From a virus, in the IMG/VR virus record IMGVR_UViG_3300025146_000074, positions 1 to 22,405 of that record: a stretch of 22,405 bases of DNA; one strand, 5' to 3'. Every line of letters starts with the position of its first letter. Position 1 is the first letter of the stretch. The position numbers were made by a program, and so were the translations under genes. Positions 458 through 6,875 of the stretch are shown one piece after another. The notes below the pieces were generated by a model, which saw nothing but the letters and a program-made list of their open reading frames with translations, was not told the origin of the DNA and did no database searches.

Positions 458-1450
458 ATGAATAAGAAGTTGGTTTCGACCCCCGATCAGTTCGTTCCCT
501 CTGCGGGGGCGTATGCCGGTGCCATGTTTCTGAAACACGGACTGAATCTCAACGCCCTCCGCACGAACGATCTCCTGCGGAAGGATGAATGGATTCAGTT
601 CGATACGGCGTTGGTCCATGAAGCGATGATCCGGCTGAACGGAATCGCTGATCTCGTGGCGAGAGGGCTGATTTACAATTTGCCCAACGCCCTCGGGAAG
701 ACGATCGTTCAGTGGGAAAAGATCTCCGACATGGACCCGGCGGTCCGGAGCATGGACGGGGCGCGGCGGGGCGACAGGGACCGCCAGGACTTCACCCTGA
801 ACAACATCCCCGTGTACATCACGCACAAGGACTTCAACCTCAACCTGCGCATGCTGGAAGGGTCGCGGACCCTGGGCCAGCCGATCGATGTGACGCAGAT
901 CCAAACGGCTACTCGGCTGATCGTTGAGAGCAACGAGGATGCTTTGTTCAACGGGCCGGGAATCACGGTAGACGGGAACACCGCCTACGGATACACCACC
1001 CATCCGAACCGGAATCTGGGCACCATCGCGGAGCCGTGGACGGATTCGGCAACTACCGGCGAGGATATGCTGGATGACGTGATTCAGATGATCACGTCGG
1101 CGCACGGCGACCGGATGTTCGGTCCGTTCATGCTGTACCTTCCGTCGGGGTACATGACGGCCACGATGGATGACTACAAGGCCAGTTCCGACAAGACCAT
1201 CCTCCAGCGGATCAAGGAACTGCCGGGCATCCTCGACGTGAAGGTGTCCGATCAGTTGGCCGCCGGGAACATGGTCCTGGTGCAGATGACCAGCGACGTG
1301 GTGGACTTGATCTCCGGGGAGCAGCCCCGGGTCGTCACCTGGGACATCGAGGGCGGGTTCATCCTGTGCTTCAAGGTTCTGGACATTCTCATCCCCAGGA
1401 TCAAGACGGACGCCCAGAACCGTTGCGGGGTGGTCCACTACTCCGAGTAA
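458..1450 (+). CDS. Major capsid protein, encapsulin-like HK97 fold
   Basis: A 330-residue shell protein. It resembles the encapsulin/linocin-like branch of HK97-fold capsid proteins: a helical N-terminus (about 40-80), a central strand-turn segment with IPVYITHKDF (117-126), the helix before ESNEDALFNG (157-166), which matches the encapsulin 'E-D-x-x-(I/L)-F-x-G' signature, and a C-terminal beta segment DIEGGFILCFKVLDILIPRI typical of the axial domain. No separate scaffold or maturation protease is visible in the window; one could lie upstream. The ATG at 458 has a very strong ribosome site. Codons end mostly in C or G and arginine is mainly CGN, unlike most other genes here, as expected for the most abundant virion protein. 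It lies between the decoration protein and the head-tail connector genes. Fold assignment is by motif, not structure. Confidence 0.88.
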   Translation: MNKKLVSTPDQFVPSAGAYAGAMFLKHGLNLNALRTNDLLRKDEWIQFDTALVHEAMIRLNGIADLVARGLIYNLPNALGKTIVQWEKISDMDPAVRSMDGARRGDRDRQDFTLNNIPVYITHKDFNLNLRMLEGSRTLGQPIDVTQIQTATRLIVESNEDALFNGPGITVDGNTAYGYTTHPNRNLGTIAEPWTDSATTGEDMLDDVIQMITSAHGDRMFGPFMLYLPSGYMTATMDDYKASSDKTILQRIKELPGILDVKVSDQLAAGNMVLVQMTSDVVDLISGEQPRVVTWDIEGGFILCFKVLDILIPRIKTDAQNRCGVVHYSE

Positions 1451-2100: not shown

Positions 2101-2460
2101 ATGGCTAGGGTCACTTCCATCGAAGTCAAGGAAATCATCTCCACGGACATCGCGGACCTTACCGCGTACATAACGGCGGCGAATCTGTTGGTGACGGAGG
2201 TGCTGGGAGGCCTCCTTTCGGATGCTCTCCTCAAAGAGATAGAGCGTTGGCTCTCCGCCCACCTCATCGCCAGCGGCGGGGAGGAAGGGGCGCGGATTGA
2301 AGAGGAACGCATCTTTGAGGCGTACGCGGCGAGATACGGGGGGAAGTTTGGCTTCGGATTGTCGGGCTCCAGGTATGGCCAACAAGTGGCCATCCTTGAC
2401 ACGACGGGCAGAATGGTCTCTCAAGGGACCGTCAAGCCCGCCGTATTCAGGATGATGTAA
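2101..2460 (+). CDS. Head-tail adaptor / connector protein (gp6-like)
   Basis: A 119-residue, mostly helical protein. The N-terminal half has short helices (IADLTAYITAANLLVTEVL), then the helix IERWLSAHLIASG. The C-terminal part ends in SGSRYGQQVAILDTTGRM and KPAVFRMM. The 'Y-(L/A)-(T/S)-A-H' helix followed by 'S-x-R-Y-G-Q-Q-x-x-x-L-D-x-T-G' is a pattern I associate with phage head-tail connector proteins that dock under the portal ring and extend the DNA channel. Length fits the family (about 100-130). The start has a G-rich ribosome site four bases upstream. The stop TAA shares its last base with the ATG of the next gene, coupling the sugar cassette to this virion gene. Confidence 0.75.
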   Translation: MARVTSIEVKEIISTDIADLTAYITAANLLVTEVLGGLLSDALLKEIERWLSAHLIASGGEEGARIEEERIFEAYAARYGGKFGFGLSGSRYGQQVAILDTTGRMVSQGTVKPAVFRMM

Positions 2461-3077
2461 TGAATCGTACCGTTGAGAGGGTCTGGGGCCGTAATGACGT
2501 AGCATATGTGCTGGCTTCTGGGCCCTCTCATGGTCTCATAGATTTAGATTTGTTACGTGGACGTAAGGTGGTGATTACGAACAACATGGTGTTTAAAACG
2601 CCTTGGGCCCCGATTTTATGCGTCCGTGACAAATTGTGGTGGAAGGAGTACCAAGGCCGCCCTGAGTTTCAAAGTTTCGAGGGTGAGGTCATCACGGTAG
2701 TCCCTAATCATTTCCATAAAAATCTCACGTTTTTGAATTATGGGGGAAGTGATGGCCTCAGCCGGGACAGGTACACCGTCTACGGGTTAAACTGCGGCCA
2801 AATGGCCATGAACGTCGTATTCCTAAAGGGGGCGGGCACTATAATTCTGATAGGTTTTGATATGCGGAAGGTGAACGATTTGGATCATGGGTGTGAACCA
2901 CATAAGAGGCCCGTCAAGGAAGAAAATTATAGTAGGTTCATAAGAAACATGGCTGTGATGGCATCGGAATTGCGCGACGAGGGTATAGAAGTCCTCAATG
3001 CTACACCGGGTAGCGCTCTTCCTTATTTCCCAATAATTTCCATGGAGGAGGCCCTTCGTCGTGGCAGACTTAATTAG
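2460..3077 (+). CDS. DUF115/Maf-like putative sugar transferase
   Basis: A 205-residue cytoplasmic protein with a Rossmann-like layout. An N-terminal strand and loop VLASGPS (17-23) is followed by VVITNN (37-42), a central NCGQMAMNVVFLKGAGTIILIGFDM (111-135, strand-helix-strand) and a C-terminal LNATPGSALPYFPI (179-192). This order matches the DUF115 (MptE-like/Maf) superfamily, common in phages. Some members are linked to transfer of acidic sugars to flagellin; others are pterin pyrophosphokinases. A sugar-transfer role fits the neighbours, but the donor and acceptor are unknown. Its ATG overlaps the adaptor stop codon (TAATG) and its 3' end overlaps the next gene by 17 bases. Base composition is clearly more A/T-rich than the capsid gene. 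A non-catalytic sugar-binding role cannot be excluded. Confidence 0.65.
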   Translation: MNRTVERVWGRNDVAYVLASGPSHGLIDLDLLRGRKVVITNNMVFKTPWAPILCVRDKLWWKEYQGRPEFQSFEGEVITVVPNHFHKNLTFLNYGGSDGLSRDRYTVYGLNCGQMAMNVVFLKGAGTIILIGFDMRKVNDLDHGCEPHKRPVKEENYSRFIRNMAVMASELRDEGIEVLNATPGSALPYFPIISMEEALRRGRLN

Positions 3078-4047
3078 GTGCGTAGTTAGGGGAAAGATGA
3101 ACCTTCCGGGAGGCGGGAGGGTTCCAGAGGGGGAAGTAATTGAGGTAACCCTTCATCAATATAAGAATTTTAGGGACGCTCTTGAGATCGTGAAAGACCC
3201 TCCCCCCCTTCCGATATTGAGGAATAATCCTCCAATGTCTCGATTCGAACCTCGCACAAAGGAAGGGCCCGAAATTCAAGGACTAATAAGTTTGGAATGG
3301 ACGGGGCCCGTCACGGTGGCGTGCGTGCTTAGGCCGTCTAAGGATTTTTCAGTGAATGTGGTGGAATTACTGTACCGTCAGTGTAGACGGTGGCTGTCAA
3401 GAATGGGTAGGTTCGTTTGTCTTACGGAAGAATCCGAGATGATGTTTAGCCCTGGTATAGAAGTGGTGCCTCTTCTACACCCTGAGTGGGCCACAAAACA
3501 TTCTAAACTCGAACTTTTTCGCCCCGAATTGTTGGAGGATTGGGGCCGAGTGTTGTACATGGATTTGGATACGATACTGTGCGGAGATTTAAACCCATTG
3601 GTGTCGTATGCCGGTAGGTTCGCGATGTTGATAGACGTAAACTTCCCCGACAACCCCGGCTCCGGTGTGATGTTATGGGGCCCGGATCGCAGGATGTCAG
3701 AAATATATTATGACTTTTTACGGATGCCTCCTGGGGAGCAAATAAGAAAATACCCCATCGGGGGCGGGCGTGGTGACCAGTTGTTCATACGCAATCACAC
3801 CCCGTACGCACCCCATTACATACAGGATTTTTTCTCGGGGGCGGTTTCCTTCAAGAAGCATTTCCGAGGAGAGGACGCCCCACCGGATATGCCCCTCTCG
3901 ATGGTATATTTTCATGGGAGGCCGAAGCCTTTTGAAGCGGCCATGAAGTATAAACAGTATCGTAACATATTTGAGCCATGGCTTAAGGAATATTGTGAGT
4001 TAGATGAGGAAATCAAGTCTGTTTGGCCCTATAGGGAGGAGGAATGA
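3061..4047 (+). CDS. GT8-like glycosyltransferase with N-terminal docking module
   Basis: A 328-residue protein in three parts. Residues 4-45 are a small beta module (IRCVVRGKM, PGGG turn, PEGEVIEVTLHQY) resembling residues 7-47 of the protein at 1577. Residues 46-78 are a Pro-rich linker. Residues 80-315 are a GT-A fold transferase: TVACVLRPS at the first strand, VLYMDLDTILCGDL (164-177) with the metal-binding DxD at 168-170, GRGDQLFIR (236-244), and YFHGRPKPF (283-291), the GT8-type C-terminal 'H-x-G-x-x-K-P'. These enzymes are retaining and use a nucleotide sugar with a divalent metal. The GTG start at 3061 follows GGAGGAGG (3044-3051). Members are usually known from lipopolysaccharide or glycogenin-type reactions. 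Here the donor might be UDP-sulfoquinovose made by the gene at 5268. The acceptor is unknown. Confidence 0.8.
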   Translation: MADLIRCVVRGKMNLPGGGRVPEGEVIEVTLHQYKNFRDALEIVKDPPPLPILRNNPPMSRFEPRTKEGPEIQGLISLEWTGPVTVACVLRPSKDFSVNVVELLYRQCRRWLSRMGRFVCLTEESEMMFSPGIEVVPLLHPEWATKHSKLELFRPELLEDWGRVLYMDLDTILCGDLNPLVSYAGRFAMLIDVNFPDNPGSGVMLWGPDRRMSEIYYDFLRMPPGEQIRKYPIGGGRGDQLFIRNHTPYAPHYIQDFFSGAVSFKKHFRGEDAPPDMPLSMVYFHGRPKPFEAAMKYKQYRNIFEPWLKEYCELDEEIKSVWPYREEE

Positions 4048-4622
4048 TGCATCTATACCCTCATGGCCGTGTTCCCAACAACCACCCGCAAGTGATACAG
4101 TTCTGCGTAGAAGCGAATGGGTGGATCAGAGGGGTGGAGGTGGGCTTGGGGCGGGGACAGAACATGTCGCACCTCATGTCCACATGTCCACACCTTCACA
4201 TGATAGGGGTAGACGTGTTTAGACACATGCCAGAGGCTCCCGGGGAGGAAGCTTATAGGGCCATGAACCACGAGGGAAACAGAAAGCGTTTGCGTACCCT
4301 GGAAAAGGCCTTTTCCGAGAGGTTCAGGGTTCTCGAAATGACTTCTCGGGAGGCCTCCTTCCGGGTGGAAGAGGAGAGCGCCGATTTCGTTTTCATAGAT
4401 GCGGACCATTCCACGGAGGGGTGCCTAGAAGATATTGGACTGTGGGCCCCAAAAGTAAAAATAGGCGGGTGGATTCTTGGACATGACTATAACCGCTTTG
4501 GGATTAACGAGGCGGTTAATAAAGCGTTTGGTGGATTTCCGGACGTCGATTATCAAGTTCTTCCATATTCGGTATGGGCGAAGAGGAAAGAGGTTTCCGA
4601 TGTGGTTCGTACCTACGCGTAA
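4044..4622 (+). CDS. Class I SAM-dependent methyltransferase
   Basis: A 192-residue protein with the Rossmann methyltransferase motifs in order: motif I VEVGLGRGQN (31-40), acidic post-I residue in IGVDVF (Asp57), FVFIDADHSTEG (115-126) as the strand-4 acidic motif, and KIGGWILGHDY (139-149) after strand 5. This layout is that of Methyltransf_24/TylF/rhamnosyl O-methyltransferase-type enzymes, many of which methylate sugars. In this context an O-methyl cap on a glycan is the simplest reading; a protein or small-molecule substrate is possible. The ATG overlaps the preceding TGA by four bases and follows GGGAGGAGG. The 3' end overlaps the next gene by 23 bases. Confidence 0.8.
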   Translation: MMHLYPHGRVPNNHPQVIQFCVEANGWIRGVEVGLGRGQNMSHLMSTCPHLHMIGVDVFRHMPEAPGEEAYRAMNHEGNRKRLRTLEKAFSERFRVLEMTSREASFRVEEESADFVFIDADHSTEGCLEDIGLWAPKVKIGGWILGHDYNRFGINEAVNKAFGGFPDVDYQVLPYSVWAKRKEVSDVVRTYA

Positions 4623-5271
4623 CAGGCCGGAAAGGCTGCAGAGGTTCCTCGACGGTTGCATCGCCACCGGAATGATCATGCCCGGTCTCATAGTAGTGGA
4701 CGGCGAGGACGGCGGCGATTACTCGAGCGTTAAATTGCCGCTTAATTGGAAAATTGAAACAGCTTCCGTACGGATTGACGCGGGAGGAAGGCAAGAGTGC
4801 TATTTTAGGTCTTACCCCGACGCTAAGTTCTACAGCATCGTGAATGATGACGTGGTACCAGAAACCCCTAAATGGGACGTGGAACTGGCTCTAGAGGCCG
4901 GAGATTGGAACGTAGCTTATCCTTGGGACACGTTGAGTGAAATGGCGACCCAATTTCTGGTAGGTGGGAAGTTATGCCACGCCGTGGGGTCTTTTTCACT
5001 TGGCTTCATGCACACCATGGTGGACCGGGCGTGGATGGATATAGGGGCCGCCCTAGGAAGGTTGAAATTCCGCAAAGATATTCGTCTCCGTCATGAACAT
5101 TGGAGCAGAGGGCTCGCACCGAGAGACGCCACGTATAAGCGGGAGTTAAATGGGGTCTCGACTATCGCTCATGATCGCGCCCGGTACGCGGCATGGAAGA
5201 CAGAAGAATTCCCTGCGCTTATCGCGCATCTGAAAACCGTTGTCCCATTTTCTCTTGGAGCCCCCACATGA
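4600..5271 (+). CDS. GT2-like (GT-A fold) glycosyltransferase
   Basis: The frame is open further upstream, but the ATG at 4600 is chosen because it follows AGAGGAAAGAGG (4582-4593) and opens directly into the first strand of the fold, FVPTRNRPERLQRFL. The 223-residue product has the GT-A order: VPTRNRP (4-10) for nucleotide binding, LIVVDGEDGGDY (30-41), FYSIVNDDVVPETP (77-90) with the metal-binding acidic pair at 83-84, and WMDIGAALGRL (145-155). A late LRHEHWSRGLAPRDATY (163-179) resembles a conserved phage glycosyltransferase family in which 'H-x-H' precedes 'D-x-T-Y'. It is shorter than typical GT2 enzymes and has no membrane segment, so it should be cytoplasmic. Donor and acceptor are unknown. 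It ends in ATGA overlap with the UDP-sulfoquinovose synthase gene. Confidence 0.75.
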   Translation: MWFVPTRNRPERLQRFLDGCIATGMIMPGLIVVDGEDGGDYSSVKLPLNWKIETASVRIDAGGRQECYFRSYPDAKFYSIVNDDVVPETPKWDVELALEAGDWNVAYPWDTLSEMATQFLVGGKLCHAVGSFSLGFMHTMVDRAWMDIGAALGRLKFRKDIRLRHEHWSRGLAPRDATYKRELNGVSTIAHDRARYAAWKTEEFPALIAHLKTVVPFSLGAPT

Positions 5272-6464
5272 AAATCCTTGTCCTCGGAGCCGATGGATAT
5301 CTTGGCTGGCCTACGTGCCTTCATTTTTCTATAAGAGGACATGAAGTCCACGCTCTAGATAGTTGCGTGAAGCGTAGGCTTCTATTTGATTTGGGTAGGA
5401 ATACCTTAGTACACGTGCATGGGTTTCAGGACCGTATATCGGCATGGACCAGTATGACGAAAAAGAAAATCGAGGGATGGGAATGTAGTTTGATAGGAAG
5501 CTATGCTCGGTTGTCCAAGATTCTTCATACCATACGTCCGGACGTAATAGTTCACTACGCTGAACAACCTTCTGCTCCCTTCTCTATGATGAATGCGGCT
5601 TCCGCCGTGTACACTCAGGAGAACAACGTTTTGGGGACACTGAACTTAATGTTCGCGGTTAAGGAAGAATGTCCGGAGGCTCACATCATAAAATTGGGGA
5701 CCATGGGGGAATATGGAACCCCAGGTATAGTAATTGAGGAGGGGTGGTTAAACATAACCCACAGAGGGAAGACCGCAAGGGTTTTATACCCTAAGAGTCC
5801 AGGCAGTTTTTACCATGCGTCAAAGATACACGACTCTACGAATTTAGAATTTGGATGTAGGGCGTGGGGCCTAAGGGTGTCTGATTTGAATCAGGGGGTG
5901 GTGTATGGGTTTAGTACCCCCGAGACTGAAAAACACTCTTATTTAGGGACAATGTTGTATTATGACGACATTTTTGGGACAGTGTTGAACCGGTTTATCC
6001 ACCAAGCGGCTGTTGGCCACCCCTTGACGGTGTATGGGAGAGGAGGCCAGACGAGAGGTTTTATAAACATAATCGACACCATGAAGTGTGTAGAAATAGC
6101 GGCTCTCAATCCTGCCGATCCTGGAGAGTTTAGGGTGTTTAATCAATTTACAGAAACGTATTCTGTATCGGCTCTCGCAGGGGTGGTGGAGAAAGCCGCT
6201 ACCGCTCTCGGAATGGAAGTTAAGAGAGAAAACATTGAAAATCCGAGGGTGGAGGCGGAATCCCATTACTACGACGCCGTGAACAGTGGTCTAAAGGCTC
6301 TTGGCCACCGTCCGACTAGACTGACTATCGACATGGTAAAGGAAATGCTACGCGTAACGGTGGAAAACAAAGGTAGAATAGACACGAAGGCTATACGTCC
6401 TTCCGTGAAGTGGAGAGAAAAAGGCTGGGAGGACCCTTGTGCCGTGGCTCCTTCTGTGTTATAA
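5268..6464 (+). CDS. sqd1: UDP-sulfoquinovose synthase
   Basis: A 398-residue NAD-dependent short-chain dehydrogenase-type enzyme that makes UDP-6-sulfoquinovose from UDP-glucose and sulfite. It is recognised from near-identical family blocks: LVLGADGYLGWPT (NAD-binding GxxGxxG, 4-16), QPSAPFSMM (100-108), AVYTQENNVLGTLN (113-126), KLGTMGEYGTP (142-152), FYHASKIHDS (181-190), LNQGVVYG (207-214), GHPLTVYGRGGQTRGF (250-265), GEFRVFNQFTE (286-296) and NPRVEAESHYY (325-335). The catalytic Thr145 and the Tyr182-x-x-x-Lys186 pair are present; as I recall, these are also the residue numbers in Arabidopsis SQD1. It is full length without a plastid transit peptide. The ATG at 5268 overlaps the previous stop (ATGA), with GGAG seven bases upstream; an in-frame extension from 5193 would overlap the GT2 gene and is rejected. 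The family normally serves sulfolipid synthesis in phototrophs and some other bacteria. Finding it inside a phage structural operon is unusual. Confidence 0.95.
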   Translation: MKILVLGADGYLGWPTCLHFSIRGHEVHALDSCVKRRLLFDLGRNTLVHVHGFQDRISAWTSMTKKKIEGWECSLIGSYARLSKILHTIRPDVIVHYAEQPSAPFSMMNAASAVYTQENNVLGTLNLMFAVKEECPEAHIIKLGTMGEYGTPGIVIEEGWLNITHRGKTARVLYPKSPGSFYHASKIHDSTNLEFGCRAWGLRVSDLNQGVVYGFSTPETEKHSYLGTMLYYDDIFGTVLNRFIHQAAVGHPLTVYGRGGQTRGFINIIDTMKCVEIAALNPADPGEFRVFNQFTETYSVSALAGVVEKAATALGMEVKRENIENPRVEAESHYYDAVNSGLKALGHRPTRLTIDMVKEMLRVTVENKGRIDTKAIRPSVKWREKGWEDPCAVAPSVL

Positions 6465-6485
6465 TGGAGGGTAGTGCCCCATAGC

Positions 6486-6491
6486 GGGAGG
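6486..6491 (+). promoter_or_regulatory. Ribosome binding site deciding the 6498 start
   Basis: GGGAGG ends six bases before GTG 6498. The competing GTG at 6474 has its GGAGGG too close for good initiation, which favours the shorter protein. Confidence 0.55.
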
Positions 6492-6497
6492 CTTAAG

Positions 6498-6875
6498 GTG
6501 TCCATAGCCAGCAGGATAGCCTCAAGGATTTCTGCCCGCTCTCAAAAAATAGGGAAAACCGTTACCATTCGCAGAGTGGTGCAGAACTATGTAGTCGCTA
6601 CGGGGAAGACCTCGGTGGTCAGTACGACGGATATTTCTGGTAAGGCGATGATAACCACGAAATCCAAAAGTAACCCTTCTGGAATGAATCCGGAGGAGAC
6701 TCTTCGGTTCTTTCTTCCCAAGCACACGTCCATCACCTTCGATCCGGCGGTTGGAGATATTGTGGTTATTGGGACGGACATGTCCGTGGGGCCTTTTTAT
6801 CGGATCGTGAGGTCCATCCCCAAGAACGTAGGAGAGGACAATTACGGTTTCCTCATCCTCTGTGGTAACGTGTGA
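6498..6875 (+). CDS. Probable head-closure (stopper) protein
   Basis: A 125-residue protein from the GTG at 6498, which has GGGAGG (6486-6491) at ideal spacing. An alternative GTG at 6474 adds eight residues but sits only two or three bases after its GGAGGG. The N-terminus is Ser/Arg-rich (SIASRIASRISARSQKIG). The rest is beta-rich, with TVTIRRVVQNYVV, a disordered Lys/Ser stretch, and VGDIVVIGTDMSVGPFYRIVRSI near the end. That last segment resembles the 'G-D-x-I-x-x-x-G-x-x-Y-x-I' barrel of phage head-closure proteins. Position between the adaptor (now separated by the cassette) and the HK97-gp10-like gene is where a stopper normally lies. Assignment is mainly by gene order. Confidence 0.55.
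   Translation: MSIASRIASRISARSQKIGKTVTIRRVVQNYVVATGKTSVVSTTDISGKAMITTKSKSNPSGMNPEETLRFFLPKHTSITFDPAVGDIVVIGTDMSVGPFYRIVRSIPKNVGEDNYGFLILCGNV

Follow-up and report, generated by a model that had tools for sequence, protein, structure and literature searches.

The window, by which we mean the whole 22,405-nucleotide stretch of IMG/VR virus record IMGVR_UViG_3300025146_000074 that was analysed, carries five overlapping or abutting genes (2460-6464, all on the + strand) between a presumed head-tail adaptor gene and a head closure gene. Head decoration, major capsid and presumed head-tail adaptor genes lie upstream of this cassette, and head closure, neck, tail terminator, major tail and tape measure genes lie downstream; the carrier is a siphovirus-like phage. 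Its major capsid protein (458..1450, +; phrog_771, DUF6260) is 38% identical to annotated Brevundimonas phage major capsid proteins. The presumed adaptor (2101..2460, +; phrog_37884; homologous to StAshley L238:7403-7789, E 1e-14) forms the left insertion edge, and the head closure protein Hc1 (6474..6875, +; phrog_161, E 5e-5) forms the right one. Brevundimonas phage StAshley has homologues of the capsid (E 2e-72) and of the adaptor, and no cassette. There, the next small structural gene, in the connector position, comes immediately after the adaptor homologue, a correspondence that is read from gene order, the StAshley connectors being too diverged for a phmmer match.

The first cassette gene (2460..3077, +) encodes a GT42/DUF115-like glycosyltransferase with the PHROG label 'alpha-2,3-sialyltransferase' (phrog_4603, E 4e-28); it has no Pfam match and no PDB sequence match, and its homologue in L006, a contig from another sample, is 34% identical and fused to gene 2. 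Gene 2 (3061..4047, +) encodes a GT8-like UDP-sugar glycosyltransferase (phrog_1962, E 2e-30; weak PDB match to the GT8 Skp1 galactosyltransferase 6mw5, E 0.002), gene 3 (4044..4622, +) a SAM methyltransferase (Methyltransf_24, E 1.5e-15) and gene 4 (4600..5271, +) a phage glycosyltransferase (phrog_14945, E 6e-20). The probable start of gene 4 is the ATG at 4600, while the mechanical open reading frame opens at TTG 4477. Homologues of gene 4 occur in L006, L024, L026, L027, L050 and L061, and Streptomyces phage glycosyltransferases are 25-28% identical to it. Gene 5 (5268..6464, +), whose ATG overlaps the stop codon of gene 4 (ATGA), is by sequence, fold and tree a candidate SQD1-family nucleotide-sugar sulfonate synthase of what we call the P101 clade. 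A preliminary description had counted two glycosyltransferases beside it; there are three glycosyltransferase-like genes and the methyltransferase.

The 398-residue product of gene 5 belongs to the SQD1 family and has the SQD1 fold. It is 53% identical to Arabidopsis SQD1, and phmmer searches of the PDB return the SQD1 chains 1qrr, 1i24 and 1i2b (E 1e-135 to 1e-136; 1qrr, 3.5e-136) as its sole matches at E < 1e-10. An AlphaFold2 model built from a 28-sequence alignment (pLDDT 89.6) superimposes on SQD1 with a TM score of 0.94-0.96 and an rmsd of 1.3 A, whereas the same model reaches a query-normalised TM of at most 0.7 with GalE-type enzymes. Sequence, fold and family scores together rule out an ordinary UDP-glucose epimerase, as the preliminary description had anticipated. 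The NCBIfam model for UDP-sulfoquinovose synthase, NF041015, matches the protein over its whole length (421 bits, E 3e-126), short of the curated cut-off of 575 bits. That cut-off is narrow and not decisive, because a CysH-fused homologue that carries the canonical Arg101 also misses it (347 bits). No SQD1-like entry was found among the best viral predicted structures, and a search of 50,697 phage records returned only ordinary SDRs at ~24% identity. Among IMG/VR contigs, at least 80 carry SQD1 homologues.

With the SQD1/SqdB enzymes of Arabidopsis (1QRR/1I24), cyanobacteria and S. meliloti the protein shares its length, fold, NAD motif and DLNQGVVYG motif. The catalytic residues T145, Y182 and K186 are kept, and likewise H96, M146, E148 and Y149. 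The earlier claim of a block-for-block match therefore stands for the NAD motif, T145, Y182 and K186, but it had missed that the position aligned to Arg101 is a proline (EQPSAPFSM versus EQRSAPYSM). Alanine substitutions H95A, R101A, M145A, Y182A and K186A each inactivate Agl3 of Sulfolobus acidocaldarius (Zolghadr et al., PMC4388408). R101 is present in Arabidopsis SQD1, in S. meliloti SqdB and in SqdX-linked genes, and it is common to the validated UDP-sulfoquinovose synthases examined (SQD1, Agl3 and S. meliloti SqdB; Agl3 from PMC4388408). The protein in the window thus lacks an arginine that the validated UDP-sulfoquinovose synthases share, and the expectation that it retained every known catalytic requirement failed at this residue (R101A is inactive in Agl3; PMC4388408).

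The substitution is not peculiar to this phage. Residue 101 is P in 77, R in 2 and not covered in 1 of 80 viral sequences, so that 77 of the 79 scorable viral homologues belong to the P101 clade. The only R101 sequences in the viral collection are L014 and L021; the latter, whose contig measures 104.8 kb, clusters with actinobacterial genes and is possibly cellular in origin. For bacteria, the 80 sequences closest to the query carry R in 56 cases, P in 20, A in 2, S in 1 and C in 1; as best matches to the query these give biased clade proportions, while the neighbourhood contrasts described below were not selected on. In a 129-row tree the change between R and P occurs once, the non-R set forming one side of a single branch (SH-aLRT 96). 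A second tree, to which 32 loci were added and from which column 101 was dropped, again has one such change. A one-clade AU test rejects 'P only', an expected outcome, since the P101 group includes the A101 and C101 rows; the P/R count remains 1. Position 101 and a K/R difference at position 35 are the only columns that strongly discriminate the two clades. L006 aside, the nearest tree relatives of the window's gene are bacterial. By these sequence comparisons, P101 is a distinct lineage of the SQD1 family, common in uncultured phages. Since the window's protein and its whole clade have proline in place of Arg101, the plain label 'UDP-sulfoquinovose synthase' outruns the evidence.

Gene neighbourhoods, taken from simple ORF calls, separate the two clades as well. 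SqdX adjoins 33 of the 56 bacterial R101 loci. Beside P101 genes, bacterial or viral, there is no confident SqdX match; the SqdX-like matches near them are weak (~60-100 bits where a score is given) and resemble general glycosyltransferases. The window itself holds no SqdX/SqdD sulfolipid synthase, as already remarked in the preliminary description, and in view of the absence of SqdX we reject a sulfolipid (SQDG) role for its gene. The related suggestion of a product other than SQDG, probably a non-lipid glycan, is supported by the same absence in the window and beside its P101 relatives. In contrast, homologues of the nonulosonate genes NeuA, NeuB or NeuC accompany 10 of 20 bacterial P101 genes and 0 of 56 R101 genes (Fisher p 2e-7, shared ancestry ignored), and 13 of 73 viral P101 genes. 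Operons that join the P101 gene to NeuC, NeuB and NeuA are found in L015, L019, L097, L090, L219, L220 and L221. The order is NeuC-2HADH-NeuA-SQD1-NeuB, small extra ORFs included, in viral L015, L019 and L029, and NeuC-MT-NeuA-SQD1-NeuB in L097. In the three phages the operon of NeuC, 2-hydroxyacid dehydrogenase, NeuA-like, SQD1-P101 and NeuB genes spans L015:1963-6523, L019:3866-9415 and L029:3570-8833; in L015 and L019 it adjoins a gene that looks by eye like a ribonucleotide reductase gene, and other phage genes. A neighbour cluster first labelled GT2 proved mixed, the L015 and L156 gene being a NeuA-like cytidylyltransferase. In proteobacterial L219 (L219:416-6315), SQD1-P101, NeuB and NeuC lie directly 3' of a gene of flagellin/hook-associated type (by eye), an arrangement that suggests flagellar glycosylation.

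Likewise, sulfite supply recurs beside P101 genes. Falkowbacteria locus L090 reads CysH-CysD-CysN-SQD1-NeuB, over an NCBIfam cut-off; CysH over such a cut-off also adjoins the P101 gene in L089 and in viral L032 and L033/L035 (L035 bears the same CysH match as L033), and L126 has CysN/C and CysD nearby. Among gammaproteobacterial P101 loci, L230 has CysH over its cut-off, and L224 and L226 have CysH-like matches below it. The 32 further loci (16 P101, 16 R101), nearly all from one proteobacterial class, include complete NeuA/B/C at 3 of 16 P101 and 0 of 16 R101 genes, which is not significant alone. Three P101 loci of this set have CysH or a CysH-like gene upstream of SQD1; among the R101 genes, one is CysH-fused. 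Added sampling of Patescibacteria contributed one locus only. CysH produces sulfite and adjoins relatives of the window's gene, which makes sulfite use by the P101 clade a reasonable inference. NeuC normally acts on UDP-GlcNAc, and its co-occurrence suggests that part of the clade acts on a HexNAc.

Two R101 loci also pair the family with sulfite production. In L210:610-2643 (-) a single ORF joins a PAPS/APS reductase (CysH, 263 bits, over its cut-off) to an R101 SQD1 domain, a sulfite maker joined to a sulfite user. On a Pelagovum plasmid (L172:6001-7907) an R101 SQD1 homologue is followed by an annotated phosphoadenylyl-sulfate reductase.

We favour, at odds slightly better than even (roughly 0.55), the reading that the P101 protein is a nucleotide-sugar sulfonate synthase that uses sulfite, belongs to a distinct non-lipid clade and supplies phage glycosyltransferases. 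By analogy to Agl3 and SQD1, such an NAD-dependent SDR would oxidise C4 of a UDP-hexose with its tightly bound NAD+. A 5,6-elimination would then release the 6-hydroxyl, with E148/Y149 as candidate acid/base, and sulfite would be added at C6 before C4 is re-reduced to give a UDP-6-deoxy-6-sulfo-sugar. The co-substrate sulfite is suggested by the CysH/CysD/CysN neighbours of relatives. The product would be UDP-sulfoquinovose or, more speculatively, UDP-6-sulfo-HexNAc. Late in infection, the cassette glycosyltransferases and methyltransferase may attach this acidic sugar to structural proteins of the phage or to the host surface; sugar substrate, acceptor and timing are all predictions. A complete pathway was looked for in the window's own phage and not found: NeuB is absent from the window and from a 49-kb sister contig, and CysH from contigs up to 49 kb. 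The phage would therefore take sulfite and nucleotide sugar from its host. Against this reading, the inactivity of R101A Agl3 means that sulfite addition might be lost, the pathway context comes from relatives, and in some carriers the gene lies within what seem to be replication modules, away from structural genes. A bolder form, to which we give about one chance in four, is that P101 enzymes are UDP-GlcNAc 6-sulfonate synthases that, with NeuC, NeuB and NeuA, would lead to CMP-9-deoxy-9-sulfo-nonulosonic acids, phages having captured both whole operons and the lone synthase, the latter in head-neck glycosylation cassettes, for sulfonated virion sugars.

A second viral P101 group has DIMQG for DLNQG (L034, L046, L049, L055, L070, L076 and ~25 similar contigs). 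It lies in what appears by eye to be a replication module, with a dCMP deaminase gene just upstream and ParB-methyltransferase and PolA-type genes downstream; a role in DNA modification is conceivable.

The strongest competitor, although less probable, is an ordinary UDP-sulfoquinovose synthase in which Arg101 is dispensable and the sole difference lies in the acceptor, which would be a glycan and not diacylglycerol. The close identity and superposition with SQD1, the conservation of all other tested catalytic residues and the scarcity of columns that divide the clades speak for it; the invariance of R101 in validated SQD1, Agl3 and S. meliloti SqdB, its necessity in Agl3, the strict clade split and P101 neighbourhoods with nonulosonate genes and without SqdX speak against it. 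Conversely, sulfite addition might be lost, because R101A kills Agl3 (PMC4388408). The R101P scaffold would then be a UDP-sugar 5,6- or 4,6-dehydratase, or would use a non-sulfite nucleophile, and make no sulfonated sugar. Agl3 deprived of sulfite does yield UDP-glucose-5,6-ene and needs R101 for activity (PMC4388408), and TunA is a natural 5,6-dehydratase (PMC8987622), but P101 genes of unrelated bacteria and viruses are repeatedly linked to the sulfite makers CysH/CysD/CysN, which speaks against this reading, the less likely of the two. We reject, as very improbable, a bacterial gene island in a chimeric or contaminated phage contig, which the bacterial tree neighbours would fit, in view of the contig agreement and the L006 cassette described below and of the interleaved ATGA-type overlaps.

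Over 12-14.5 kb, four further IMG/VR contigs of 29-49 kb match the window without a difference, three of them spanning both cassette edges, and with the window they probably represent one phage population. L006 differs in capsid family and encodes a head protease; it carries the fused gene 1+2, gene 4 and an SQD1 homologue 68% identical to the window's between capsid/decoration and adaptor/Hc1 genes. These agreements answer the concern, raised at the outset, that 2460-6464 might be a bacterial chimera. An ORF at L006:3775-4779, between the capsid and decoration genes, has by eye a homing-endonuclease look (GIY-YIG/NUMOD). The order GT8-MT-GT-SQD1 recurs in L024/25, L026, L027, L050 and L061, and without MT in L006; the SQD1 proteins of the former group share only 43-47% identity with that of the window. 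Genes for Hc1, neck and terminator come after the cassette in L061/62, as do tail genes in L024; in L026 the capsid gene comes before it. Glycosyltransferases in the structural operon thus recur at one site in different phages (the window, L006, L026, L061/62 and L024). Sulfotransfer_4 sulfotransferase genes lie inside two window-type cassettes (L027:4227-4835 and L061:2231-3016). From the late-operon placement and the recurrence behind capsid genes, we favour virion decoration as the putative destination of the sugar; host-surface modification is a possible alternative.

Virion decoration has a precedent, itself a proposal, in mycobacteriophage Corndog, where an O-methyltransferase and glycosyltransferases (gp35-gp38) in the structural operon were proposed to modify the capsid (PMC4351075). 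The shared feature is glycosyltransferase and methyltransferase genes in a virion operon; the Corndog group lies between portal and protease genes, and the accessible text of that report places no SQD1-type gene there (PMC4351075). Agl3 is an SQD1 member that serves N-glycans and so, as predicted for the window's enzyme, a glycan and not a lipid; unlike the latter it is an archaeal cell enzyme that has and needs R101 (PMC4388408). From SQD1/SqdB the window differs in Pro101, in having no adjacent SqdX/SqdD sulfolipid synthase and in its phage structural operon.

The preliminary description knew of no SQD1 gene among virion genes, but SQD1 in a phage has been known since 2020, when a putative UDP-sulfoquinovose synthase was annotated in a Mu-like virus from the Cariaco Basin and linked by its authors to glycosylation (PMC7785012); the IMG/VR homologues add to this. 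That case, likened to ours by its description, is a single contig for which host N-glycosylation was proposed, and the accessible text mentions neither residue 101 nor a clade or cassette (PMC7785012). No further report of a viral UDP-sulfoquinovose synthase was found in the open-access literature, and no open-access paper was found linking nonulosonate with sulfoquinovose. The P101 clade, its SqdX-free context linked to nonulosonate and sulfite genes, and the head-neck cassette look undescribed.

Together, our data show that residue 101 sets the sulfolipid-type synthases apart from a large clade, mostly viral, whose genes are tied to those for sulfite supply and surface sugars, and this split poses a simple, testable enzymatic question. 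Viral 'sqdB' annotations should be read with caution as signs of sulfolipid metabolism. The P101 clade suggests that a sulfonated surface sugar, as yet undescribed and perhaps an analogue of sialic acid, is encoded in the structural operons of uncultured phages.
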